Translations under genes and position numbers: made by a program
Shown: positions 16,141-32,592 of the stretch, piece by piece
Layout: the number at the start of each line of letters is the position of its first letter
Numbering within the stretch: position 1 is the stretch's first letter
Notes under the pieces: model-generated
Seen by the model: the letters and a program-made list of their open reading frames with translations, nothing else
Database searches by the model: none
Told to the model about the DNA's origin: nothing
Source of the DNA: a virus
DNA: 32,592 nt
Virus record (IMG/VR): IMGVR_UViG_3300025097_000027
Span: 1 to 32,592 of that record
Strand: one strand, 5' to 3'

Positions 16141-16752
16141 ATGAAAGTAGATGGCAAATACCAGCTTTTAGTTGTAAGAGCAAGATATTTAAAAACTACT
16201 TTAAAATTATCTAAAGACATTTTCCAACATGCCCACACTACCTTCATGGAAGCTCTTTCAAATAATCCGAATATTTTACCCGTCAAAAAATCATCCAGGC
16301 CGCGGCCCAATCCGGAGATACAAGAATCAGCCCCATTCGAGGCACCAGAAGATGAAGGGGAAACTGTAGAGGCAATAAAAGAAGAAAAAGATGAAAACTT
16401 AAAGCAAGTTTTTAAAAAGATAGCCGCAAAAGTTCACCCGGATAAAACACTAAACGATCCTTGGGAAGAGAAGAGTTATAAAGCATTACTTTTTGAAAAA
16501 GCAAGAATGTATTTAGAGGCCAACGACTATTGTGGTATAGTAGAGATCGCTGAAGAATTAGGAATAAAACCGCCATCGCCGACAAAGAAGCAAATTCAAA
16601 TGATGAAAAAGACTAACCGCATCTTGGAAGATGAAATAGACACGATAGAAGAATCTCTGGTTTGGGGCTGGTATCATGCAGAAGGCGAAGAAAAAGAAAC
16701 TTTAATGGAGAAATACATTGAACACCTCAGGAAAAACAATACTCGGCCTTGA
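16141..16752 (+). CDS. J-domain-like (DnaJ-type) protein (203 aa)
   Basis: A DnaJ-like core is visible at residues about 83-145. Helix II (LKQVFKKIAAKV) is followed by an HPDK loop with H99-P100-D101, then a helix with the expected Lys/Ala-rich pattern (SYKALLFEKARMYLEANDY). HPD is the motif with which J-proteins stimulate DnaK/Hsp70 ATPase. The N-terminal 75 residues are a different helical and Pro-rich region; Gly/Phe-rich and zinc-finger parts of full DnaJ are missing. The ATG at 16141 is 8 nt after the last virion gene, with no strong SD. The 3' end overlaps the resolvase gene by 35 nt. Recruitment of host DnaK for virion assembly or replication is inferred. Only the HPD loop and flanking helices support the call. 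Confidence 0.7.
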   Translation: MKVDGKYQLLVVRARYLKTTLKLSKDIFQHAHTTFMEALSNNPNILPVKKSSRPRPNPEIQESAPFEAPEDEGETVEAIKEEKDENLKQVFKKIAAKVHPDKTLNDPWEEKSYKALLFEKARMYLEANDYCGIVEIAEELGIKPPSPTKKQIQMMKKTNRILEDEIDTIEESLVWGWYHAEGEEKETLMEKYIEHLRKNNTRP

Positions 16753-18398: not shown

Positions 18399-21300
18399 AT
18401 GAGATTTGCTCATATTGCTGATACCCATATCAGGAATCTAAAATATCACTTTGAATACAGAGAAGTATTCCAACAACTTTATAAATCACTAAAAGAAGAA
18501 AAAGTAGATTATATCATTCACTGCGGGGATATCGCCCACACTAAAACGCAGATATCACCAGAATTTGTAGATCTTTGTAGAGAGTTCTTTGTAAGCCTCT
18601 CTTCTATCGCGCCAACTTATATTATTTTGGGCAATCATGACGGAAATTTAAGGAACAGTAGCCGCCAAGACGCTTTGTCGCCGATAGTGAAAGCCATAAA
18701 TTCCACCAGTTTAACCCTAATTAGGAATGCAGGCGAAGTAAAACTTAAAGAAAACTTCTGCCTGAACGTACTTTCTGTCTTCGACGAGGACAACTGGATA
18801 GCACCAACAAACAAAGAGGCAATAAACATTGCCCTATATCATGGAGCTATCGATAAATCGAAGACTGATAGTAACTGGACACTAGGAGGTGATCATGATA
18901 TTAGCATCTTTAATGATTTTGACTTTGGTTTTCTTGGCGACATACACAAAACCCAGAAGCTAGACAGCAGCGGCCGCATTTGGTATCCTGGCTCAACAAT
19001 CCAGCAGAACTTCGGTGAGTCACTAGACAAAGGATATTTACTATGGGATATTCAAAGTAAAGAAGACTTTACTAACAGACTTATAACTTTTACTAACCCT
19101 AAACCCTTTATAACACTCGAGCTTACTAAGGCAGGCAACCTTCCTCGCAAAAAGCCGCCCCAAGGCGCGCGCCTCAGAATTGTTTCAAGTGAAAATGTTA
19201 CTTTAGATAAAGTAAGAAAAGCTGTGGACATTGTCAAGTATAGAGACAATCCAGAATCGGTGACATATCTAAACAGAGCCGCTGGCAAACAAATAGCAGT
19301 TCAAGCACCAGAGGGGATAAATCAAGAAGACCTTAGAGATCTTAAGACCCAAGAAAAGCTCATGGCAAAGTACCTTGAAGAGTTTGAAGTTTCTGAGGAT
19401 GTCTTAGAGAAAGTATACGATCTAAACAAGAGATATAACACACAGGTTGAAGAAGAAGAAGACGTGATGAGAAACGTGCACTGGTCTTTGCAATCTTTGG
19501 AATGGGATAACTTATTCAATTATGGCGACGGCAATGTTATTGACTTTACAAAACTCGAAGGCATAGTTGGAATATTTGGAAAGAATTACTCAGGCAAGTC
19601 ATCCATTGTCGATACTCTTTTATATTCTTTATATAATTCTACTTCAAAATCAATAAGAAAAAATCTTAATATCATTAACCAGAACCGCCCAAGTTGCATG
19701 GCCAAGGCAGTAATCATGGTTAACGATACAGAGTACTCTATAGAAAGGACGTCAGAGAAGTACACTAAGCGTTTAAAGGGCGTTGAGACCAAGGAGGCTA
19801 CCACTGACCTGGAATTCTATAAACAGGGCTTAGACGGCAACGTTGTGGGCTTAAACGGGACGTCTAGACAGGACACTGATAAGAATGTTAGGAAATACTT
19901 TGGAACACTTCAAGACTTCCTAGCGACTTCAATGGCTAGTCAATTAGATTCTCTGTCTTTCATCAATGAAGGTTCGACCAAAAGAAAAGAATTTTTAGCT
20001 AAGTTTTTGGATTTGGAAATATTTGATAAGAAATTTAAAATTGCCAAAGAAGAATCCGCAGTGACCAAAGCGGCTTTAAGGCGCCTCGAAGGTATCGACT
20101 TTGAGGTTGAGATAGGTAATATTGAAAAAGAGATAACCACTAGCGAATTAAGCATTGAATCAAACAAGGCAGCATGTGTTTCACTAAGAAGTGATATCGC
20201 AGAAGAGAGAGAAGTCCTAAGTGAACTGGAAACAAAAATAGAATCAGTACCAGCAGAAATTATTGACCCAGTCATGACTACCGCAAGAATAGAACAAAAG
20301 AAAGAAAACATTCTCAGAGAAACTTCAACCAAAACAGAGTCGATTAAAGAATTAGCGGAGAGTGAAAAGAGATTCGAAAAAATAGCTTCCTTTCTGTCCG
20401 ACTTTGATATATCTTCCTATCAACAAAAGAAGATTCTTATAGATGAAAAGAAAGATCATTTAACATCCTTATTCAAAATCATAGAGAACGAATCAGAAGA
20501 AACCTCACGAAACCGCCGTAAGCAGAGTCTGCTTTCGGAAGTACCTTGTGGTTCGAGCTTCCCTACTTGTAAGTTTATTAAAGACGCCCACGCGGCAACA
20601 AATTTAATTCAAATTTCTGATTCTAATATTTCCTCGTGTTCTCGCGAGGTTAACGAAACCGGCGCGCTGATAAGAGACCTCGAACCGCAAAAGGTAGAGG
20701 ATCATATACAAAAATATAATGTTCTCGTTGACAAAAGAAACACTCTTGCAACTTCGATAGTAACTAATAAACTTAGAATTGAAAAAGCAGAAAGCAATTT
20801 ATTCAAGGAGCAAGTCGAGCTTGAACAGTTGCAAAATAAAAGTTTAGAATATGAACAAAATAAAGAAGCAATAGAAAATCTCAAAGAGCTGCTGGGTGCA
20901 TGTCAGGAGAAGAGAAGGAAAATTATAAAAATAGATAAGAAAATAGAGGAATGCCAAGCAAGGGTAATGCAGTTGCATAAAAACCATGGTTCGCTAGAGC
21001 AGAAGCTCACCTATATTAAAGAACAAAAAGATGAATATGAAAACCTCCAAAGTGACTTCGCCGCATACCATTTACTGATGACTTGTTGTCATCCTAATGG
21101 TGTTTCTTACGACATTATTAAGAGAAGGCTTCCCTATATCAACCAAGAAATCGCCAAAATATTGACGAATATTGTTGAATTTGAAGTTTTTATTACTAAC
21201 AACGAAGACAAACTAGATATTTTTATCAAACACGCCAAGCATGATCCGCGTCCCCTAGAGATGGGATCTGGAGCAGAGAAGACCATCGCGTCGATGGCAA

Positions 21301-21536
21301 TAAGATTAGCATTTCTAACTGTATCCAGTTTACCAAAGTCTGATCTATTTATACTGGATGAGCCAGGCACAGCTTTAGACGAAGAAAATATGGAAGGGTT
21401 TGTAAGAATACTGGATATGATAAAAGGATATTTCAAGACAGTTCTTCTTATCTCTCATCTAGACAATCTTAAGGACTGTGTCGATATGCAAATTAATATT
21501 GAAAGAAAAGACGGCTACGCGCACGTCAACATATAG
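18399..21536 (+). CDS. Single-chain Mre11/Rad50 (SbcD-SbcC, gp47-gp46) fusion nuclease-ATPase
   Basis: Residues 1-340 form an Mre11/SbcD nuclease: D8-x-H10, GD44, the G-N-H-D block ending at H80-D81, a YHG motif near 148 and GDIH near 184. From about residue 359 a Rad50/SbcC ATPase begins (HWSLQSLEWDNLFNYGDGN), with Walker A G394-KNYSGK-S401, a long coiled coil (about 520-900), signature MGSGAEKT at 955-962 and Walker B LFILDEP with D987-E988. In T4 and bacteria these are two genes (gp47/gp46, SbcD/SbcC). Here one uninterrupted frame of 1,045 residues carries both in nuclease-ATPase order. The hook in the coiled coil is C717-G-S-S-F-P-T-C724, not CxxC. The complex resects DNA ends for recombination. 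GGAG lies 5 nt before the ATG, behind the promoter at 18346. Confidence 0.93.
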   Translation: MRFAHIADTHIRNLKYHFEYREVFQQLYKSLKEEKVDYIIHCGDIAHTKTQISPEFVDLCREFFVSLSSIAPTYIILGNHDGNLRNSSRQDALSPIVKAINSTSLTLIRNAGEVKLKENFCLNVLSVFDEDNWIAPTNKEAINIALYHGAIDKSKTDSNWTLGGDHDISIFNDFDFGFLGDIHKTQKLDSSGRIWYPGSTIQQNFGESLDKGYLLWDIQSKEDFTNRLITFTNPKPFITLELTKAGNLPRKKPPQGARLRIVSSENVTLDKVRKAVDIVKYRDNPESVTYLNRAAGKQIAVQAPEGINQEDLRDLKTQEKLMAKYLEEFEVSEDVLEKVYDLNKRYNTQVEEEEDVMRNVHWSLQSLEWDNLFNYGDGNVIDFTKLEGIVGIFGKNYSGKSSIVDTLLYSLYNSTSKSIRKNLNIINQNRPSCMAKAVIMVNDTEYSIERTSEKYTKRLKGVETKEATTDLEFYKQGLDGNVVGLNGTSRQDTDKNVRKYFGTLQDFLATSMASQLDSLSFINEGSTKRKEFLAKFLDLEIFDKKFKIAKEESAVTKAALRRLEGIDFEVEIGNIEKEITTSELSIESNKAACVSLRSDIAEEREVLSELETKIESVPAEIIDPVMTTARIEQKKENILRETSTKTESIKELAESEKRFEKIASFLSDFDISSYQQKKILIDEKKDHLTSLFKIIENESEETSRNRRKQSLLSEVPCGSSFPTCKFIKDAHAATNLIQISDSNISSCSREVNETGALIRDLEPQKVEDHIQKYNVLVDKRNTLATSIVTNKLRIEKAESNLFKEQVELEQLQNKSLEYEQNKEAIENLKELLGACQEKRRKIIKIDKKIEECQARVMQLHKNHGSLEQKLTYIKEQKDEYENLQSDFAAYHLLMTCCHPNGVSYDIIKRRLPYINQEIAKILTNIVEFEVFITNNEDKLDIFIKHAKHDPRPLEMGSGAEKTIASMAIRLAFLTVSSLPKSDLFILDEPGTALDEENMEGFVRILDMIKGYFKTVLLISHLDNLKDCVDMQINIERKDGYAHVNI

Positions 21537-21545
21537 GAGGATTTC

Positions 21546-21752
21546 ATGGTGGCAGAATTAAAAGCATTCGCAGACAAATATACAGAGAAGTTTATATCTA
21601 GGAAGTTTCTTGCATGGGTAACAGCAACAGCTTTGTGTGCTTACGGTACGGTAACCAGCGATAATTGGACAGCAATTACACTTGCTTACATTGGGACACA
21701 AGCCTTGGTCGACATGGCCGTACAGTGGAAGCACGGCCCTAACTCAGAATGA
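21546..21752 (+). CDS. Small membrane protein, holin-like (68 aa)
   Basis: A strong AGGAGG (21535-21540) precedes the ATG at 21546. The product has a short Lys/Glu-rich N-terminus and then two hydrophobic segments, about residues 21-37 (FLAWVTATALCAYGTV) and 43-61 (WTAITLAYIGTQALVDMAV), with a charged C-terminus. Two short membrane spans, small size and position in front of two coiled-coil membrane proteins suggest a holin or holin-like role. No lysis enzyme is next to it and no holin signature motif was recognised. The stop overlaps the next ATG (ATGA). Confidence 0.55.
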   Translation: MVAELKAFADKYTEKFISRKFLAWVTATALCAYGTVTSDNWTAITLAYIGTQALVDMAVQWKHGPNSE

Positions 21753-22150
21753 CTTGGCTGCTCTTTAAGAAATCGATGTCGCAAGCTTGGTCTTGGCTCA
21801 GGACGCATTGGCAAATTCCATTTTTAATAGCTTGGAGTATCCTGATTTGGATCTTGGCCAGACGTAACACTGAAGCTATAATGGAAGTAATTGAAGCCAA
21901 GAAAGAATCTCACGAAAGGCAAGTAGAAGTCCTCAAAAGCTCTCATAGAGATGAGCTTTTAAAAATGGGAAATCTCATAAAAGAATATGAAAGCTCATTG
22001 TCTCGTGTGGAAGATGAATTCAGGAAGAAAGAAAAAAAGCTTTCAGAGGCTCAAAAAAATGAAATCAAGAAGGTGGTGATCAAATCAAAAGGAAACACCG
22101 ATGAAATTAAGAAAAGAATTGAAGAAGAGTTTGGTATTAAGTTTGTGTAA
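21749..22150 (+). CDS. Membrane-anchored coiled-coil protein, possible i-spanin-like (133 aa)
   Basis: The ATG overlaps the upstream TGA by 4 nt (ATGA), so translation is coupled. One N-terminal transmembrane helix (about residues 21-38, WQIPFLIAWSILIWILARR) is followed by about 90 residues of Glu/Lys/Ser-rich coiled coil, placing the coil in the periplasm if the N-terminus is inside. This is the topology of phage inner-membrane spanins (Rz-like) and of other anchored coiled-coil proteins. It overlaps the next gene by 50 nt in another frame, reminiscent of nested Rz/Rz1 pairs. No sequence signature proves spanin function. Confidence 0.5.
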   Translation: MTWLLFKKSMSQAWSWLRTHWQIPFLIAWSILIWILARRNTEAIMEVIEAKKESHERQVEVLKSSHRDELLKMGNLIKEYESSLSRVEDEFRKKEKKLSEAQKNEIKKVVIKSKGNTDEIKKRIEEEFGIKFV

Positions 22151-22616
22151 TAGATTTTTTATTTGTTTGTTGATACTTGCTTTCCCCATGCCTTCGAAGG
22201 CAGAACTCATTATTGGGGGGGAACCTATCCCACCCGGCACCGCAGCCTATGTAGATGATGTAGCTTTACTCGAAGATATAGGCCTGCCAGGTCCAGGTGT
22301 ATTTTGTTATGACCACCGCGCAAATGCCATTCTTATTACTGCAGCTGCTCGAGCTGATGCGCGCTGTGAATTACAGATGAAGTATGAAACAGAAAAGCAA
22401 AAAATAAAATATGAGTTTAGAATAGAAAAATTGAATATAAGGATAGAGAGCTTAACAAACCAACACAAAGAAATTACCAGTATCAAAGATAAGGAAATTG
22501 ATAGACTTAGTGCTGCAGCTTTAAAGAGACCCAACGATTACACCGCTTGGTGGGCCTGTGGTGGGTTTTTAGTTGGCGTTGTCAGTTCTGCATTACTCTT
22601 TTCAGTGATAAAATAA
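22101..22616 (+). CDS. Exported protein with C-terminal membrane anchor (171 aa)
   Basis: The first 34 residues look like a signal peptide: basic start, hydrophobic core (FFICLLILAFPM) and a signal-peptidase-I-like SKA-E site; no lipobox is present. The mature part has a Gly/Pro-rich head (ELIIGGEPIPPGTAAY), a Cys-containing middle and a coiled coil (about residues 85-140). A transmembrane helix (WWACGGFLVGVVSSALLF) ends at the C-terminus. AAGGA (22089-22093) is 7 nt before the ATG, and the start lies within the upstream gene. A periplasmic coil anchored by its C-terminus resembles a one-component spanin, except that the N-terminal lipid site is missing. I judge a lysis or envelope role plausible but unproven. 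Confidence 0.55.
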   Translation: MKLRKELKKSLVLSLCNRFFICLLILAFPMPSKAELIIGGEPIPPGTAAYVDDVALLEDIGLPGPGVFCYDHRANAILITAAARADARCELQMKYETEKQKIKYEFRIEKLNIRIESLTNQHKEITSIKDKEIDRLSAAALKRPNDYTAWWACGGFLVGVVSSALLFSVIK

Positions 22617-23538: not shown

Positions 23539-25125
23539 ATGGCATTCTCTCTTTCCAAGAAAGAAATAATGAAAGAGATAGTCAAGTGTGGAAAAACTCC
23601 TGATTATTTCATCAATACTTACGCGAAGATAACGCACCCCCAAAAGGGATTAATACCTTTCCACCTCTACGACTTCCAAAGAGATCTACTTAAAGATTTC
23701 GAAGATTACAGATTTAATGTAATTCTAAAAGCTAGGCAGTTAGGTATTTCTACTATATCGGCCGCCTACGTGGCTTGGCTCATGCTTTTCCATCGTGAGA
23801 AGAACGTTCTAGTCATTGCAACTAAGTTCAGTACTGCCGCGAATCTAGTAAAGAAAGTAAAAGCAATTATAAAAAACCTTCCACAATGGCTGAGAATTTC
23901 AGAAGTTGATATTGATAACAGGACTAGTTTTGTTTTATCAAACGGATCCCAGATAAAAGCTAGTTCAACATCGGGCGACGCAGGTCGTTCTGAAGCATTG
24001 TCTTTGTTAGTCATTGACGAGGCCGCACATGTCGAGGGTCTTGAAGAATTGTGGATGGGTCTATATCCTACCTTGTCGACCGGTGGCCGATGCATTGCAC
24101 TTTCCACACCAAACGGTGTCGGCAACTGGTTTCACAAAGTATACTCAGAGGCTGAAAGTGAAACCAATGACTTCAAGCCTACTGTATTGCCATGGCAAAA
24201 GCATCCTGACCGCGACCAGGCATGGTTCGAGAAAGAAACAAGAAACATGTCTCGCAGAGAAATTGCTCAAGAGCTTGAATGCAATTTTAATATGTCTGGG
24301 GAAACAGTGTTTTCTTCCGAGGATTTGGAAAAGCATTTAAGCACATGTAGAGAACCAAAATATAAAACAGGATTCGATCGTAATTTGTGGATTTGGGAAA
24401 ACTATACAGCAGGCCAAGATTATTTTATTTCTGCAGACGTCGCCAGGGGTGATGGTAAGGACTTTTCCACCGCATTAGTATTCAAAACAAACACTATGGA
24501 AGTTGTAGCAGAGTACAGGGGAAAAATAACACCTGATCTTTTCTCTAAAATTTTATATGATATTGGGTTAGAATATGGTAGTGCACTTTTAGTAGTGGAG
24601 AATAATACAGTTGGGTTCGCAGTTTTGGACAAATTAAGAGAAGCAGCATACCCGAATCTTTATTATTCTGTGAAGTCAACTCATGAGTTCGTCGACGAAT
24701 ATCAAGCAGAGAACATGAATAACGCGATCGCAGGGTTCTCAACGACCTCCAAAACAAGGCCTTTGATTATAGCAAAGATGGAAGAATTTGTAAGAAACAG
24801 CCTAATTAAGATATATTCAACTAGACTTATAGCTGAAATGAAGACATTTGTTTGGAATCATGGCCGCCCAGCTGCAATGAGGTCATATAACGATGATCTT
24901 ATTATGGCATGTGCAGTCGGCTGTTGGGTCAGGGATACTGCTCTCTCTGCGAACCAAAGAGAGCTTGAATACGATAAAGCATTTCTTGGGGCGATAACTA
25001 GAACAGGAAATCAATTAGACACCAGAATTGGTGGTATGTTAGGTCAAAAAGACATGAAACTTCATGACGAGGCCAGAGAGCACAGGAGCAACCTAGAACA
25101 ATTTCCCTGGCTTTTTAAAGGATAA
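23539..25125 (+). CDS. Terminase large subunit (T4 gp17-like)
   Basis: This is the ATP-driven DNA packaging motor. The N-terminal ATPase has a gp17-type Walker A variant (K64-A-R-Q-L-G-I-S-T), Walker B LLVIDEAAHV with D160-E161, and a coupling motif (STPNGVGNWFH). The C-terminal RNase H-like nuclease has D300 in FISADVARGDGKDF, a LLVVENNTVGF strand with the next acidic residue, and the DDLIMACAVG strand. At 528 residues it is shorter than T4 gp17 (610), missing mainly terminal extensions. It makes headful cuts and pumps DNA through the portal encoded 3 nt downstream. The start ATG at 23539 is 6 nt after the previous stop. Confidence 0.95.
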   Translation: MAFSLSKKEIMKEIVKCGKTPDYFINTYAKITHPQKGLIPFHLYDFQRDLLKDFEDYRFNVILKARQLGISTISAAYVAWLMLFHREKNVLVIATKFSTAANLVKKVKAIIKNLPQWLRISEVDIDNRTSFVLSNGSQIKASSTSGDAGRSEALSLLVIDEAAHVEGLEELWMGLYPTLSTGGRCIALSTPNGVGNWFHKVYSEAESETNDFKPTVLPWQKHPDRDQAWFEKETRNMSRREIAQELECNFNMSGETVFSSEDLEKHLSTCREPKYKTGFDRNLWIWENYTAGQDYFISADVARGDGKDFSTALVFKTNTMEVVAEYRGKITPDLFSKILYDIGLEYGSALLVVENNTVGFAVLDKLREAAYPNLYYSVKSTHEFVDEYQAENMNNAIAGFSTTSKTRPLIIAKMEEFVRNSLIKIYSTRLIAEMKTFVWNHGRPAAMRSYNDDLIMACAVGCWVRDTALSANQRELEYDKAFLGAITRTGNQLDTRIGGMLGQKDMKLHDEAREHRSNLEQFPWLFKG

Positions 25126-25128
25126 AAA

Positions 25129-27156
25129 ATGGCTAAAAAATTAAAGAACAATCCAAGAAACCCACAAAGTCTTTTATTTCGAAGACTAACCCGACTGCTA
25201 TCAGGCCCTCTAGTCAATTACAGAACGCAGACCAACCACCGCTTAAAGCGAATGGATATAGACAAGTACGCTTCAAAGTTTACTTCTGCTAGCGGCCGCG
25301 ACTTTAAAAAAACAGCATATAGTCCATACGATAACCTACAAGCGCAAGCCATGGCCAGTCAAGCAAGGACAGAGCGATATGTGGACTTCGATCAAATGGA
25401 GTATACTCCGGAGATTGCCTCTGCTTTGGATATCTATTCTGACGAAATGACGACTCACAGCGGCCTGCAGAAAGTCTTGAGCGTTAAGAGTGACAATGAA
25501 GAGATTAAAACAATCCTAGAATCACTTTATTACGACATTCTTAATGTAGAGTACAATCTCTTCTCCTGGTGCCGAGCAATGTGTAAGTACGGAGATTTCT
25601 TTCTATATCTCGATTTAGACGAAAAGGTCGGCATTACGAGCGTCATTGGTCTACCCACATCAGAAGTTGAAAGGCTCGAAGGTGAAGACAAGGGAAATCC
25701 AGATTATATACAATATCAGTGGAACACTGCCGGCCTAACTTTTGAAAACTGGCAAATAGGTCACTTTAGAGTCCTAGGAAATGATAAGTATAACCCATAT
25801 GGCACATCAGTATTGGAGCCTTCACGACGAATTTGGCGACAACTAACCTTGCTAGAAGACGCAATGATGGCCTATCGTATTGTCAGATCTCCCGAAAGGC
25901 GCGCCTTTTATATAGATGTCGGGTCAATCCCACCGCAAGATATCGAACAGTATATGCAGAAGGCGATGACACAGATGAAGCGAAACCAAGTTGTTGATCC
26001 TGACACCGGCCGTGTCGACCTTCGTTATAACCCGCTTTCAATTGAAGAAGATTATTTTATCCCTGTCCGCGGCGGCCAAAGCGGAACAAAGATAGAATCG
26101 ATTCAAGGTGGTAAATATACAGGTGACATCGACGACGTTAAATATTTAAGAGATAAGCTATTTTCAGCATTGAAGATACCAGCTTCTTATCTCTCTTCTG
26201 ATTCAGACAAAGCCGCAGAAGATAAGACGACTCTTGCTCAAAAGGATATTAGGTTTGCAAGGACTGTTCAAAGGCTTCAGAGATCTATTATAACAGAACT
26301 TGAGAAGATCGGCACAATTCACCTTTACACAATCGGATATAGAGAAGAAGACCTGGTTAGCTTTAAGCTATCCCTCAACAATCCTTCAAAGATTGCCGAG
26401 ATGCAAGAACTTGAGCACTGGAAGACAAAGTTTGACATTGCCTCCTCGGCCACCGAAGGCTTCTTTTCTAAGCAGTGGCTAGCCAAAAAGCTATTTGGTA
26501 TGTCAGACGAAGAATTTATCCGAAACCGAAGAGAAATGTTTTATGACCGTCGCTTTGAAGCCGCGCTTGAGACTGCAGCCGAAGCTGAACAGGCCGCTGC
26601 CACGGCACCCGGCGGCGAACTCGGTGGGGATATGGGAGAGGAAGGTGGTACAGGTATGGCAGGGATGGAACCTGAACTTGGGGCCCCCACAGGGGAAGGT
26701 GACTTAGGCGGAGATCTAGGTGGAATGGAACCTGAAGGCGCCGGCGCCCCAGAGGGGCCTGAAGAGGGCGACCTTCTCGCAGCACCACCTGGCAAAAGGG
26801 ACGATGGTATTGGAAAACAAACAAACCGAAAAGGTCACACGACTACCTCAAAATCTCATGGCTGGTACGAGCCCCGAGGTTTATCTTTAGCCGGCGACAG
26901 AAGAAAATCATCCGGTCCCCGCAAAAAGAATATGAACAGGGCGGCATCCCCGGAGGTGGGAACACGCAGAAAAACACTACCAGGATCGCAGGAGTTAACA
27001 AGTCTTGCAAGAGGGACTGGTGTTTATGAGAGTAAACTAACTATTTATTCTAAAGAAGAAGAAAAAAAGCTTTTAAAAGATCAGGAAGAGTTGAAAGTTT
27101 TGTTTGAGGATTTAAATTTAAAATCGAGGAAAAATAAAGATGAGACTGAAACATAA
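25129..27156 (+). CDS. Portal protein (T4 gp20-like) with long C-terminal extension
   Basis: This is the dodecameric head vertex through which DNA enters. The core (about residues 60-500) has the T4-type portal layout: PEIASALDIYSDE near the start, a YGDFFLYLDLDEK strand, a PYGTSVLEPSRRIWRQL clip/stem segment and GGQSGTKIESIQGGKYTGD. A DIDDVKYLRDKLFSALKIP helix and SDKAAEDKTTLAQKDIRFAR follow. At 675 residues it exceeds T4 gp20 (524). The extra C-terminal part is Gly/Glu/Pro-rich with two 20-residue repeats, then a basic Lys/Arg/Ser-rich segment and a Lys/Glu helix. It lies 3 nt after terminase and overlaps the next gene by 17 nt. An AACTATTTA copy sits at 27039-27047 inside the coding sequence. 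Confidence 0.93.
   Translation: MAKKLKNNPRNPQSLLFRRLTRLLSGPLVNYRTQTNHRLKRMDIDKYASKFTSASGRDFKKTAYSPYDNLQAQAMASQARTERYVDFDQMEYTPEIASALDIYSDEMTTHSGLQKVLSVKSDNEEIKTILESLYYDILNVEYNLFSWCRAMCKYGDFFLYLDLDEKVGITSVIGLPTSEVERLEGEDKGNPDYIQYQWNTAGLTFENWQIGHFRVLGNDKYNPYGTSVLEPSRRIWRQLTLLEDAMMAYRIVRSPERRAFYIDVGSIPPQDIEQYMQKAMTQMKRNQVVDPDTGRVDLRYNPLSIEEDYFIPVRGGQSGTKIESIQGGKYTGDIDDVKYLRDKLFSALKIPASYLSSDSDKAAEDKTTLAQKDIRFARTVQRLQRSIITELEKIGTIHLYTIGYREEDLVSFKLSLNNPSKIAEMQELEHWKTKFDIASSATEGFFSKQWLAKKLFGMSDEEFIRNRREMFYDRRFEAALETAAEAEQAAATAPGGELGGDMGEEGGTGMAGMEPELGAPTGEGDLGGDLGGMEPEGAGAPEGPEEGDLLAAPPGKRDDGIGKQTNRKGHTTTSKSHGWYEPRGLSLAGDRRKSSGPRKKNMNRAASPEVGTRRKTLPGSQELTSLARGTGVYESKLTIYSKEEEKKLLKDQEELKVLFEDLNLKSRKNKDETET
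26665..26784 (+). repeat. Two 60-bp imperfect tandem repeats in the portal extension
   Basis: ATGGAACCTGAA occurs at 26665-26676 and 26725-26736, exactly 60 bp apart. The encoded 20-residue units begin GMEPELGAPTGEGDLGG and GMEPEGAGAPEGPEEGD. The repeat lies in the disordered Gly/Glu/Pro-rich extension of the portal protein and keeps the reading frame. Confidence 0.6.
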
Positions 27157-27973
27157 CAAGAAGAGAAATACTGCGTTTGTATATGAGGCACTCGTTAGGG
27201 AATTGACGAAATCGATTGTAAAGAAGAATAAAAATAAACAAAAAAGAATTGTTTTAATTATGAAAGAACACTTTGCAAAAGGCACTGAGTTAAATAAAGA
27301 ACTTGATCTCTATAAAAGCGTATATGAAACAAGAGCAATTGAGAAGCGACTAGCAGAAAAGATTATTGTAGAAGCGAAAGAAAAATACCTAGGCTTAAAT
27401 AAAAAGGTAATATTCCAAGAGCAATCTTCGCTGATTAACAAAATAAATAAAACCTTGTCAAAAACTTTGTTTACTAATTTTGTGCCAAACTATAAAAATC
27501 TAGCAACGGTATACTCAATCTTCCAAGCCGCGCTGCCAATAAAGGATAGGGTATTACTAGAAGAGAGCATTGTTATCCAGATGTCAGAATCTTGCAAAAC
27601 ACAAGAAACACAGGCCCCCGTCGACAACTTGGTATATAAAACTTTTGTAGAAAAATTCAATGAAGAATATTCAAATGGCCTAAAAGAAAGTCAAAAGATT
27701 CTTTTAGAAAAATATATTTCCTCTTTTTCCGACAGTGGTTTGGAATTTAAGTACTATCTAAATGAGGAGGTCGGTTCGTTGAAAGACCAGCTTCTTGAGT
27801 GCAAGAAAGACGCGGACATTAGCGAAGACGCTAGTTTAAAAGAGAAGATAGATAAAGTATATTCCATATTGGAGTCTTACCACGAGAGGGAATTAGACAC
27901 TGATATGATTGAAGTTGTCTTAAAAACACAAGATTTAATAGAAGAGATAAAACAAGATGCCACTATCAGTTGA
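27140..27973 (+). CDS. Unknown Lys/Glu-rich helical protein (277 aa)
   Basis: The ATG at 27140 has GAGGA (27126-27130) 9 nt upstream and overlaps the portal gene end by 17 nt. The product begins MRLKHNKKRNTAFVYEALVR and is mostly charged and helical (many K, E, L, I), with a few short hydrophobic stretches and no transmembrane helix or motif. A conserved-looking protein sits at this place, between portal and protease, in marine T4-like phages as I remember them; its function is not established. It overlaps the following gene by 17 nt. An assembly or scaffolding accessory is a guess from position. Confidence 0.75.
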   Translation: MRLKHNKKRNTAFVYEALVRELTKSIVKKNKNKQKRIVLIMKEHFAKGTELNKELDLYKSVYETRAIEKRLAEKIIVEAKEKYLGLNKKVIFQEQSSLINKINKTLSKTLFTNFVPNYKNLATVYSIFQAALPIKDRVLLEESIVIQMSESCKTQETQAPVDNLVYKTFVEKFNEEYSNGLKESQKILLEKYISSFSDSGLEFKYYLNEEVGSLKDQLLECKKDADISEDASLKEKIDKVYSILESYHERELDTDMIEVVLKTQDLIEEIKQDATIS

Positions 27974-28897: not shown

Positions 28898-28917
28898 CTG
28901 AAGCGGTTGACCACCGC
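28892..28917 (+). promoter_or_regulatory. Two overlapping stem-loops before the protease ribosome-binding site
   Basis: Stem 1 pairs GCTT (28892-28895) with AAGC (28901-28904). Stem 2 pairs GCGGT (28903-28907) with ACCGC (28913-28917), loop TGACC. They share bases 28903-28904, so both cannot form completely at once. Stem 1 contains the TAG stop of the small leader ORF. Stem 2 ends 1 nt before AAAGAGG, the SD of the protease gene. Stems are short (4 and 5 bp), so significance is uncertain. Confidence 0.35.
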
Positions 28918-28930
28918 AAAGAGGAAAATT

Positions 28931-29533
28931 ATGAAACTTATAAGAGAATATTTTGAACTCTGTGAAGGAGGGATATGCCAAGACCTTCTGACAGAAGCCG
29001 AAAAGAAATATGTTTCCGACGGCGGGCTCATACTCTCAGGCCTCATGCAAATGGCGGAGACAAAGAATGGCAACGGCCGTATTTACCCACAGGCTATCCT
29101 CGAGAGAGAAATTAAGAGTTATAGGCGCCTTGTCGAAGGTCATAGGGCCCTTGGCGAACTTGATCATCCGGATTCTTCGGTCATCAATCTGGTGAGCGTA
29201 TCCCACATGGTGACTTCGGTCTGGATGGAAGGCAAGAAGTGTATGGGGAAAATAAAAGTATTAGACACCCCTGCAGGCAAAACGCTAAGAGCGCTAGTTG
29301 AATCCGGCGCCCAACTAGGTATTTCGTCCAGAGGTATGGGTTCGGTAAAGGAGAGTAACGGAACAACGATGGTGGAAGATGATTTTCAGCTAATATGTTT
29401 TGATATTGTTTCAGAACCATCTACACCTGGTGCTTTCATGATGACAGAAGCAAAAGATAAGACAAACGTTTATAATCGAGCTGATAGGATTAATAGATCG
29501 TTAAGTAACATTTTATATAAGTTTGAGAATTAA
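28931..29533 (+). CDS. Prohead protease (T4 gp21-like)
   Basis: This serine protease matures the prohead by cutting scaffold and capsid protein. The catalytic His is H79 in GELDHPDSS and the nucleophile is in GISSRGMGS (S132/S133), matching the gp21-type arrangement. ATG 28931 is chosen over an in-frame TTG at 28907 because AGAGG (28920-28924) lies 6 nt before it and T4-like proteases start with a short MKLI-type segment (here MKLIREYFELCEGG). Possible self-cleavage sites of the L-x-E type are L10-C-E12/G13 and L20-T-E22/A23. At about 200 residues it matches T4 gp21 (212). The stop is followed directly by a GTG start. Confidence 0.92.
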   Translation: MKLIREYFELCEGGICQDLLTEAEKKYVSDGGLILSGLMQMAETKNGNGRIYPQAILEREIKSYRRLVEGHRALGELDHPDSSVINLVSVSHMVTSVWMEGKKCMGKIKVLDTPAGKTLRALVESGAQLGISSRGMGSVKESNGTTMVEDDFQLICFDIVSEPSTPGAFMMTEAKDKTNVYNRADRINRSLSNILYKFEN

Positions 29534-29965
29534 GTGAAGAAATCAGAATTAAAAGCGATGATAAAAGAGTGTGTCAAAGAGGCATTATTTGAAGAAGGCA
29601 TACTTTCGGAGATTATAGCCGAAGTTGCATTTGGAATCACCAAGGCGCAGAATTTGATTGCGGAAGCTAAAGAACCAGAGAAATTAGAGAAAGCTAGCAA
29701 TAAGATCAGCGTCCCTCTTTTGAAAGAAAAAGAGGAGAACCATCGTAAAAGGCTTCTTGAAACAAAAAGAAAGATGCTTGATGCGATAGGGGGAGGCAAG
29801 ATGAAGAATGTTTTTGAAGGTACTAAGCCTTTAAGTACCAGCGGTTCTCCGGGTTCAACCGACGCCGGCTCTAGTCCTCTTTCAGGAGTCGACCCGTCGG
29901 ATTCGGGAGTAGATATAAGTAATTTGTTTAATTTAGCAGGTGACAAGTGGAAAGCACTAAAGTAA
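29534..29965 (+). CDS. Small scaffold- or core-like protein, GTG start (143 aa)
   Basis: GTG at 29534 immediately follows the protease stop codon, so translation is coupled; no separate SD is evident. The product begins MKKSELKAMIKECVKEALFE, a charged helix. A Lys/Glu-rich helical middle and a Ser/Gly/Pro-rich, probably disordered, C-terminal part (SGSPGSTDAGSSPLSGVDPS) follow. An I-A-E/A site near residue 44 fits the protease specificity of T4-type gp21. No known motif was recognised. Position between protease and the later scaffold gene suggests a prohead core component; this is inference. Confidence 0.7.
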   Translation: MKKSELKAMIKECVKEALFEEGILSEIIAEVAFGITKAQNLIAEAKEPEKLEKASNKISVPLLKEKEENHRKRLLETKRKMLDAIGGGKMKNVFEGTKPLSTSGSPGSTDAGSSPLSGVDPSDSGVDISNLFNLAGDKWKALK

Positions 29966-29975
29966 AGGATTTATA

Positions 29976-30215
29976 ATGGGAAGAAGAACACCAGTCCATG
30001 TTGACGTTTATGTCAGGGATCAGGACCAAACCGAGAAAATGATTAAGAAATTCTCGAAAAAAGTAAAGAAGTCGGGAATTCTAGAAGAAGTTCGAGACCG
30101 AAGATACTTTACAAAAAAATCAACTAAAAGAAGAATGAAAAAATTAGAGCGACTAAGACTAATTAAGATAGCGAATGCAAAACAAAAGGCACGCTATGAA
30201 AACGAATATAAGTAA
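29976..30215 (+). CDS. Ribosomal protein bS21-like protein
   Basis: The 79-residue product is very basic and carries the bS21 pattern at about residues 24-52: FSKKVKKSGILEEVRDRR, then Tyr-Phe and a K-x-S-x-x-R-R-x-x-K run. The order G-[IV]-L-x-E-[VL]-R-x-R-x-[FY] followed by a Ser/Thr and a basic helix is diagnostic. bS21 binds the 30S subunit near the anti-Shine-Dalgarno end of 16S rRNA and helps initiation. Phage-encoded bS21 copies are known in marine phages. AAAGGA (29964-29969) is 6 nt before the ATG. The residues before the core (MGRRTPVHVDVYVRDQDQTE) are longer than in bacterial bS21. The gene sits between protease/scaffold-like genes and a small virion-like gene, so it is probably expressed with the head operon. 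Confidence 0.85.
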   Translation: MGRRTPVHVDVYVRDQDQTEKMIKKFSKKVKKSGILEEVRDRRYFTKKSTKRRMKKLERLRLIKIANAKQKARYENEYK

Positions 30216-30229
30216 CGGAGATTTTAGAA

Positions 30230-30580
30230 ATGGCAGGTTCAGGGTTTAATCACATACCAAACGCCGGTGAAGGAAGAAAACATCAAAGTTGGGGAAGAAC
30301 AAGACAACCGAAGAATGTTACTGGAACGCAAAACGGTTCTATCATTGTAGACACAGAATATAACACAGAAAACCAAAGGTATCTCTTGGTATACACCTCC
30401 GCGGCCGTTGAAGCCGGCGCTATTGTAGTTTGGAGTCACGCCATACAAAACTGGTTAACATTAAATACGGCCGACACAGTTGCCAACCAGCTGCATATAT
30501 ACGATCTCGGAGGTTCCGATAAAGTTAAATGTACTGATCTCAATGCCGGCGTTGTAAAAATGGCAACTAGCACCTTCTAA
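30230..30580 (+). CDS. Small virion-like protein (116 aa)
   Basis: The ATG at 30230 has GGAG about 9 nt upstream and follows the bS21-like gene by 14 nt. The N-terminal 35 residues are basic and Gly/Asn-rich; the rest is beta-type (alternating Val, Ile, Tyr, Leu with Thr/Ala), ending in KMATSTF. This could be a head-decoration or fibre-tip-like subunit from size and location between head genes. No motif supports a specific name. It is the last gene before a 105-nt gap that carries a paired AACTATTTA/AACTATTCA element. Confidence 0.6.
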   Translation: MAGSGFNHIPNAGEGRKHQSWGRTRQPKNVTGTQNGSIIVDTEYNTENQRYLLVYTSAAVEAGAIVVWSHAIQNWLTLNTADTVANQLHIYDLGGSDKVKCTDLNAGVVKMATSTF

Positions 30581-30685: not shown

Positions 30686-31891
30686 ATGTCAAGTTTACTA
30701 GAGAGAGCAATTATCGATGCTACCGCACTAAAAGAGGCAGCACTTAAGAATGCTGAAAACCTTGTGATTGAGAAATACTCGAAAGAAGTGAAGGATGCAG
30801 TAGCTACTCTTTTGGAAGCCGAGGGCGATGAAGACCTTCTAGGCGACTTTGGAGGAGAAGAGGAACTAGAAGGTTTTGACTCCCCTGAGCTAGACGCAAT
30901 TGACCCCATGGGAGCAGATCCTATGGAAGACACAGCAGAAGAAGAAGCCGCTCAAGAGTTCGCAGACAGTACGTTAGGAGAAATTCCAGATGCTTTCGAC
31001 CCCGACCTTGGCGATCCAGACGACGAAATAATTAATATTAAACTTGATTCCTTACGCGCAGAACTGCCCGATGAGGAAACCGGCGTCTTCGGTGGAGATG
31101 ACGAGCTGACTGACGATGAGCTTGGCATTGATATTATTGACGACGAAATTGAAGATGATGAAGAAATTGATCTAGATTTGGATTTAGATACCGATTTCGA
31201 AGCACCAGTTGATACAACCCCTGACTTTGACGCTGAACCTGCATCTATAACACCAGAAATGGTAGCAGAAGTCCTCAGCGAGATGAATTTGGAAGATGAA
31301 GACATCGACCTTGAAGAAGTCATGGAGGCCGTTAGGGTAGATTTCGAGCCCCAAAAGAGCGGCTGGGCGGGCACTCCTGAGTCTGTCATGAAAGAGTATG
31401 AGCAGATGCTCCTTGCTCGCGAACAAGATACAAAGATTAAAGAAGAAAATGAAGAATTGCGGAAAACAGTAGCAAGTCTTCAGAAAGAAAGTAAGATTCT
31501 GACTTCTGCAGCCGAAAAATTACAGGCGCAGAACAAGAAATATGTTACAACGTTAGAAACTTTGCAAGAAAAGTTGGAAACCACAAATGTCTCCAACGCG
31601 AAGCTGTTGTATATTAACCGCGCTTTAGAGAATGCCTCCCTGAATGAGCGACAAAAGCAAAAAATTGTTGAATCCATTTCCAAAGCCGAAACCGTACAAG
31701 AAGCAAAGATAGTGTTTGATACACTTTGCGAGACTGTTACTTCTTCCCCTGCAGAGAAGAGAGTAAATAGCCTCAGTGAAGCTGTCTCAAGGCGATCAAC
31801 GTTACTTGTCGCCGCTCGTGAAGAGCAAAAAGATAGGGCAGCTAACCCTGCATTCGATAGATTGCAAAAATTAGCAGGAATAGTTAAATAA
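30686..31891 (+). CDS. Prohead scaffold/core protein (T4 gp22-like role)
   Basis: ATG 30686 is preferred over an in-frame GTG at 30659 because AGGAG (30671-30675) lies 10 nt before it. The 401-residue product has a helical N-terminus (MSSLLERAIIDATALKEAAL), a long Asp/Glu-rich region (about residues 45-205), a coiled coil (about 245-315) and a basic C-terminus ending LQKLAGIVK. Acidic plus coiled-coil layout directly before the capsid gene is typical of T4-type scaffolds. L-x-E sites matching gp21 specificity are L15-K-E17/A18 and L42-L-E44/A45. It would form the core around which the capsid assembles and then be cleaved. Sequence similarity to gp22 is weak by eye, so the call rests on composition and position. 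Confidence 0.78.
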   Translation: MSSLLERAIIDATALKEAALKNAENLVIEKYSKEVKDAVATLLEAEGDEDLLGDFGGEEELEGFDSPELDAIDPMGADPMEDTAEEEAAQEFADSTLGEIPDAFDPDLGDPDDEIINIKLDSLRAELPDEETGVFGGDDELTDDELGIDIIDDEIEDDEEIDLDLDLDTDFEAPVDTTPDFDAEPASITPEMVAEVLSEMNLEDEDIDLEEVMEAVRVDFEPQKSGWAGTPESVMKEYEQMLLAREQDTKIKEENEELRKTVASLQKESKILTSAAEKLQAQNKKYVTTLETLQEKLETTNVSNAKLLYINRALENASLNERQKQKIVESISKAETVQEAKIVFDTLCETVTSSPAEKRVNSLSEAVSRRSTLLVAAREEQKDRAANPAFDRLQKLAGIVK

Positions 31892-31915: not shown

Positions 31916-32592
31916 ATGTCTGTATTACAAAAACTAACTGAAGGTGTTGTCTCTCGTGACGTCCGTAAGGAAGGTGCAGCTCTTCTCACTAAGTGGGAAG
32001 CTACTGGTCTTCTGGAAGGTCTTAACAATGGACAAGCCAAACAAAGTATGGCCGTTCTCCTTGAGAACCAGGCTAAGGAGCTTCTTCGTGAGGCTTCATC
32101 TATGGCAGCTGGCGACGTCGAAGGCTTCGCAGCAGTTGCATTCCCAATTGTCCGCCGTGTATTCGGTGGATTGATTGCAAATGATCTTGTCTCGGTTCAG
32201 CCGATGAGCTTGCCATCTGGCCTCATCTTCTTCCTTGACTTTACGCATGAAAATGGTGTGCTCGGCGCCACAACCGCCGGCTCCGTTTACGGTGGAACTA
32301 GAGCAAACGGCGAGCCGGTCGTTGGTCGACAGATTACTGGCGGTGTGCACTTGAATTCAAGAGCCGGCGCCGGCGGCCACTACGAGTTGGGCCATGGTGC
32401 CACTTCTCCAACTGGATCGGTTGTTAAGCAGATGGACAACGCTGTCATCGGCGCCCTGGGCGCGAATGGTTCTAAAGCTATTTCAGCACTAACTGAAGCA
32501 GAAAAGAAGATTTTGCGTTATGATCCAGACCTACTTGCAGCAACAAGCGAGTTTGTTCTTGTAGTCAAGGGTGACAATACAGCGGTCACAGA
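31916..32592 (+). CDS. Major capsid protein (T4 gp23-like), 3' end beyond window
   Basis: GGAGG (31902-31906) is 9 nt before the ATG at 31916 and the frame stays open to the window end, giving 225 residues of a longer protein (T4 gp23 is 521). The N-terminal 60 residues are helical. A segment near residues 72-102 (FPIVRRVFGGLIANDLVSVQ, then PMSLPSGLIFFLDF) aligns with the gp23 region that reads MVRR, LI, D, VQPM, P-x-G and a Phe-rich strand. L57-R-E59/A60 fits the prohead-protease cleavage rule and lies near the known T4 gp23 cut after residue 65. Codon use here looks richer in C-ending codons than in neighbouring genes, as often seen in highly expressed capsid genes. Confidence 0.9.
   Translation, partial: MSVLQKLTEGVVSRDVRKEGAALLTKWEATGLLEGLNNGQAKQSMAVLLENQAKELLREASSMAAGDVEGFAAVAFPIVRRVFGGLIANDLVSVQPMSLPSGLIFFLDFTHENGVLGATTAGSVYGGTRANGEPVVGRQITGGVHLNSRAGAGGHYELGHGATSPTGSVVKQMDNAVIGALGANGSKAISALTEAEKKILRYDPDLLAATSEFVLVVKGDNTAVT

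Follow-up and report, generated by a model that had tools for sequence, protein, structure and literature searches.

A gene for ribosomal protein bS21 is almost universal in one large marine clade of phages, in which it is always co-directional with the capsid genes. The member of this clade described here is represented by a 32.6-kb fragment of viral DNA (hereafter the window).

Placement of bS21 in the head operon

An ATG-initiated open reading frame of 79 residues fills exactly, stop codon included, the interval given for bS21 in Table 1. Its identity, as proposed in the first-pass annotation, was borne out by the Pfam search, residues 11-61 matching PF01165 (Ribosomal_S21) with E=1.5e-12 and 47.5 bits against a curated cut-off of 27. 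It also matches PHROG 21469 ("ribosomal protein S21"), and phmmer with the window sequence identified 36 different bS21 sequences in the PDB at E<=1. Thirty-six relatives, each of which individually matches PF01165, were combined into a profile, which recovered bacterial bS21 chains in the PDB (best E=1.2e-13) with an alignment beginning at bacterial residue 4. These matches show the gene to be a true bS21. An AlphaFold model from the single sequence, of low confidence (mean pLDDT 70, pTM 0.32), places helices at residues 16-33 and 47-78, as expected of the two-helix bS21 architecture; Foldseek with this model gave no meaningful match.

The surrounding genes lie on the plus strand in the order TerL, gp20 portal, three genes of unassigned function (starting at 27140, 27957 and 28508), gp21 protease, X143, bS21, Y116, gp22-like scaffold and gp23, and are assigned by content and order to an operon of the T4 head type. 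The location of bS21 within a head operon, also asserted previously, is upheld by Pfam profiles for gp20, gp21 and gp23; the gp22-like scaffold matched no Pfam or PHROG family. bS21 is two genes from gp21 and three from gp23, and is separated from X143 by 10 nt. Outside this operon the window holds a gene with a weak DnaJ-domain match, a cluster of three small genes that are possibly lysis genes, and a single long reading frame combining SbcD/Mre11-like and SbcC/Rad50-like domains, which are normally encoded by two genes.

Table 1. Features of the window, in window coordinates
Feature	Position	Strand	Basis
203-aa protein, weak DnaJ-domain match	16141..16752	+	E=3.6e-4, below Pfam cut-off
Single 1045-aa ORF, SbcD/Mre11-like metallophosphatase (T4 gp47-like) plus SbcC/Rad50-like AAA/SMC (T4 gp46-like)	18399..21536	+	
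Three small overlapping genes, possible holin and spanin-like lysis genes	21546..22616	+	membrane-like segments by eye; last two overlap in different frames
Terminase large subunit (TerL)	23539..25125	+	tblastn to annotated phage terminases, 43% identity
gp20-like portal	25129..27156	+	PF07230 E=1.7e-81
g277, 277-aa gene after portal	27140..27973	+	prohead-protease-like motifs
gp21-like prohead protease	28907..29533	+	PF03420 E=1e-28; PHROG 207
X143 (143 aa, GTG start), conserved partner gene, putative processed prohead-core protein	29534..29965	+	synteny; L/I-x-E enrichment
SD-like AAGGA upstream of bS21	29965..29969	+	sequence
bS21 (rpsU-like), 79 aa	29976..30215	+	PF01165 E=1.5e-12; PHROG 21469; PDB bS21 chains
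Y116 (116 aa), small gene after bS21, in part of clade	30230..30580	+	position, relatives
gp22-like scaffold	30686..31891	+	position, acidic/coiled composition, synteny
gp23-like major capsid protein, cut by window end	31916..32592	+	PF07068 E=1.8e-11; PHROG 138

Conservation of this placement was assessed in three IMG/VR samples, each comprising the best 80 matches to one query; because the samples overlap and include close relatives, the counts hold for this clade and not for all T4-like phages. Among marine contigs selected by gp21 match regardless of bS21 (gp21 identity at least about 61%), 62 of 80 carry bS21, invariably downstream of gp21 and on the same strand, at a median of 856 nt. 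The other 18 all break off 44-2628 nt past gp21, short of gp22 and gp23, so that bS21 is missing from no contig that spans the whole interval. Contigs selected by bS21 match have the gene in the head cluster in every case (80/80), together with X143 in 78. The third sample was selected by X143, using a subset of the X143 alignment as query since the full set was too diverged; here a same-strand bS21 is present in 74 of 80, within 60 nt in 64 of those. Of the remaining six contigs, five stop within roughly 1 kb, and the sixth (L256) has, further down its length, a divergent bS21 match that falls below the cut-off. Insertions of up to 2.5 kb are frequent between gp21 and X143, with X143 and bS21 usually still adjacent.

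The bS21 gene is under purifying selection, with a median dN/dS of 0.11 over 35 close pairs (which are not independent), beside medians of 0.12 for X143, 0.05 for gp21 and 0.04 for gp20. Distances among bS21 sequences track those of the portal gene (Mantel r=0.66, p=0.001), to the same degree as X143 (0.66) and more closely than gp21 (0.49), a pattern that fits long-term inheritance of bS21 with the head module.

Sequence features of bS21 and its partner X143

The segment HVDVYVRDQDQTE had initially been taken for a phage-specific N-terminal extension, a view rejected by alignment: it is mostly a normal bS21 N-terminal segment, corresponding to VIKVRENEPFD in E. coli, and only about seven residues (MGRRTPV) are additional, part of which is often missing in related phages, many of them starting later. 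The E. coli and F. johnsoniae proteins served as references, and the E. coli-type alignment was confirmed by the PDB matches. In 168 unique relatives the canonical bS21 residues (E. coli numbering) are F19 in 99%, R33 as R/K in 93%, R35 in 85%, K40 in 92%, P41 in 80% and T42 as S/T in 95%. The position of E. coli E24 is occupied by lysine in 98% of these sequences, and helix 1, RRFKRSCEKAG in E. coli, reads about RRFxKKVKKxG in the clade, making it unusually lysine-rich compared with both E. coli and F. johnsoniae. The clade-wide peculiarity of the sequence is located in helix 1.

The gene that almost always precedes bS21, X143, represents a conserved unannotated family of about 130-160 residues. 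Its members share (L/I)xEEG at the end of an N-terminal helix, the motif (L/V)FEGT and, towards the C-terminus, GVDIS...W. Nothing credible was found for it in Pfam, the PDB or PHROGs, and its structure model, of low confidence, contains only separate helices. L/I-x-E is the sequence after which T4 gp21 cuts, and it is found in the core and internal proteins (PMC9026906). Relative to shuffled sequences, the motif [LIVF]xE[AGS] is enriched 3.4-fold in gp21, 2.2-fold in gp22, 2.1-fold in gp23 and 3.6-fold in X143 (2.48 per protein against 0.69 expected), and is not enriched in bS21 (0.98-fold), TerL (0.9-fold) or gp20 (0.6-fold), these counts, the members being related, amounting to a single conserved pattern and not to a series of independent events. 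Enrichment was also observed in g277 (2.7-fold), a candidate for a further core protein. An early N-terminal site is present in 76-93% of gp21, gp22, gp23 and X143 sequences (83% for X143), in 3% of bS21 and in none of TerL or gp20. The bare L/I-x-E motif shows a mild 1.7-fold excess in bS21, explained at least in part by the bS21 core (GILEEV, where E. coli has LAE). X143 thus looks like a processed protein of the prohead-core type and bS21 probably is not a processed head protein; the motif enrichment of the one and not the other argues against a virion role for bS21.

Translation signals and type of host

In Bacteroidota, an aromatic residue of bS21 (Tyr54 in F. johnsoniae) helps to sequester the anti-Shine-Dalgarno (anti-SD) tail (PMC9723584). 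The equivalent residue in the window protein is R61, which is not aromatic, and among the 168 relatives this position is R in 70%, K in 10% and A in 10%. Of the clade's head genes, 56% are preceded by an SD-like site, as against 12% of random positions, with start codons assigned crudely; gp23 has one in 14 of 16 cases, and none was found at six head genes of the Flavobacterium phage immuto. The use of SD sites, combined with the missing aromatic residue, argues against a Bacteroidota host. Twelve large relatives had neither a psbA nor a psbD family, and the reading as a psbA-bearing cyanophage was dropped on that ground. A scan of bacterial genomes returned a single marginal locus (Segetibacter) and no clue to the host.

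The promoter searches identified no late promoter. The T4-type late promoter TATAAATA is in slight excess over the whole window, with no exact site in the head operon, and sigma-70 promoters are near chance (8 found, 6.7 expected), a count that deprives of credibility the 10/12 match at 29948-29977 overlapping the start of bS21. Terminator-like sites number 10, against 4.3 in shuffles, and eight of them are on the minus strand.

Possible roles and comparison with known phage systems

Among virus-encoded ribosomal proteins, bS21 is the most often detected (PMC6375957). In the clade described here we consider it probable that a functional bS21 is made late with the head proteins, enters the host 30S subunit and favours SD-led late phage mRNAs, and on sequence evidence late replacement of the host bS21 on the 30S platform appears the most likely mechanism. 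The protein would be made late in infection from one polycistronic message with X143 and its neighbours; it would take the exchangeable bS21 site of the host 30S platform, beside the anti-SD tail, and would thereby shift initiation toward abundant SD-led late phage mRNAs such as that of gp23. Late co-expression of bS21 and the structural genes, suggested in the first-pass annotation, is plausible, and co-directional gene packing is consistent with it. The favoured model is supported by the identity of the protein, its fixed placement and strand, purifying selection, divergence with the head genes, the canonical residues, the SD-like sites before head genes and the lack of a processing signature. 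Published support is the incorporation of the bS21 of Pelagibacter phage HTVC008M into E. coli ribosomes (PMC6375957) and the transcription of bS21 with structural genes in other phages (PMC9723584). Against the model stand the low in vitro activity of the ribosomes with the HTVC008M protein, which kept only about 5% (PMC6375957), and the failure to identify a late promoter. We found no demonstration in the literature of selective translation of phage mRNA by a phage bS21.

Packaging of bS21 in the head, so that it is injected and acts on ribosomes as soon as the next infection begins, was raised as a possibility by Chen et al. (2022, PMC9723584). Such packaging, or service as a small basic internal head protein, would be in keeping with the position of the gene amid gp21, gp22 and gp23 and adjoining that of a putative core protein, and with the very basic composition of the product (27 K+R, 10 D+E). 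We regard it as unlikely, given that bS21 shows neither the motif enrichment nor, beyond rare cases, the early N-terminal site that mark the head and core proteins, and that its conserved bS21-specific residues would be needless for a mere DNA-binding head protein, though bS21 could be packaged unprocessed. Slightly less likely again is a role as an inhibitor, displacing host bS21 to stop host translation, or off the ribosome, in binding phage RNA or regulating the operon. The near-abolition of E. coli translation by the HTVC008M protein and the lysine-rich helix 1 speak for this reading; however, the in vitro effect may stem from a mismatched host, and placement among late genes would make a general shut-off during capsid synthesis improbable. 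The least probable reading, which we consider quite remote, is that of a captured host gene devoid of phage-specific role, retained by chance or as a mild supplement to host bS21. The largely canonical sequence would agree with this, as would the retention of bS21 elsewhere in the genome of HTVC008M, but position and strand are held in 62/62 informative contigs sampled by gp21 and in 74/80 sampled by X143 (five of the six exceptions are truncated early), despite gene insertions nearby, and the gene is under purifying selection.

Late replacement of host bS21 could be extended, tentatively and with considerable doubt, to a proposal that the clade's bS21 is a core head-operon gene obligately paired with X143 as a new prohead-core family, its lysine-rich helix 1 tuning SD-dependent initiation, so that ribosome remodelling would be linked to the making of capsids in hosts outside the Bacteroidota.

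Several known phages share parts of this arrangement. HTVC008M, the experimentally tested case in which the viral protein enters 70S ribosomes (Mizuno et al. 2019, PMC6375957), is likewise a marine T4-like phage with bS21, but unlike in the window its gene adjoins those for CobS and Hsp20, at a distance from the head region. Flavobacterium phage immuto (NC_055915), one of the cultured phages that come nearest in TerL and portal (43%), has the same order of head genes and no bS21 anywhere in its 160-kb genome, whereas the uncultured 484-kb phage LR756508 has bS21 directly before gp22/gp23. Of 13 records searched end to end, 12 had a single copy of bS21. Similar in layout to the window is the cultured Microcystis phage Mel-JY01 (PP395634), with protease, hypothetical protein, RpsU and then gp22-like and capsid genes, all co-directional. 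It differs in that its TerL is only 42% identical, its bS21 is diverged, another gene follows bS21, and the gene preceding bS21 is not detectably X143. A tblastn search of cultured phages with the window bS21 returned nothing at E 0.01, though Mel-JY01 carries one, which was missed because the protein is short and diverged. The gene immediately after bS21 in Mel-JY01 (L012:8430-9596) has a C-terminal stretch that by eye is ADP-ribosyltransferase-like; T4 Alt is a head-borne ADP-ribosyltransferase. This cultured phage is a possible, more distant test organism.

The linkage of bS21 to head genes is itself already known from other phages, and was published with late transcription by Chen et al. 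(2022, PMC9723584). In 388 of 900 published bS21 phages they found one or more core structural genes no more than ten genes away from bS21, and metatranscriptomes show bS21 transcribed with structural genes in other phages; those authors propose a takeover of ribosomes late in infection (PMC9723584). Their freshwater Bacteroidetes myophages resemble the window in having bS21 within the TerL-portal-protease-capsid region; they have it on the opposite strand, with a Tyr54-type aromatic residue and predicted Bacteroidetes hosts, whereas in the window phage bS21 is co-directional, arginine occupies the Tyr54 position and SD sites are present. Because the head genes of those phages do not form a single operon and bS21 is encoded on the other strand, the published timing is not directly transferable; nor is the Bacteroidota model, the anti-SD-blocking aromatic residue being absent and SD sites being used. 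To what was known, the present analysis adds near-universality within a clade, co-directionality, the conserved partner gene X143, and a bS21 devoid of processing signals and of apparent non-Bacteroidota character. A clade with near-universal, co-directional bS21, SD use and no processing signals offers a cleaner test case than the Bacteroidetes phages already published for asking whether phages customise ribosomes for late translation.
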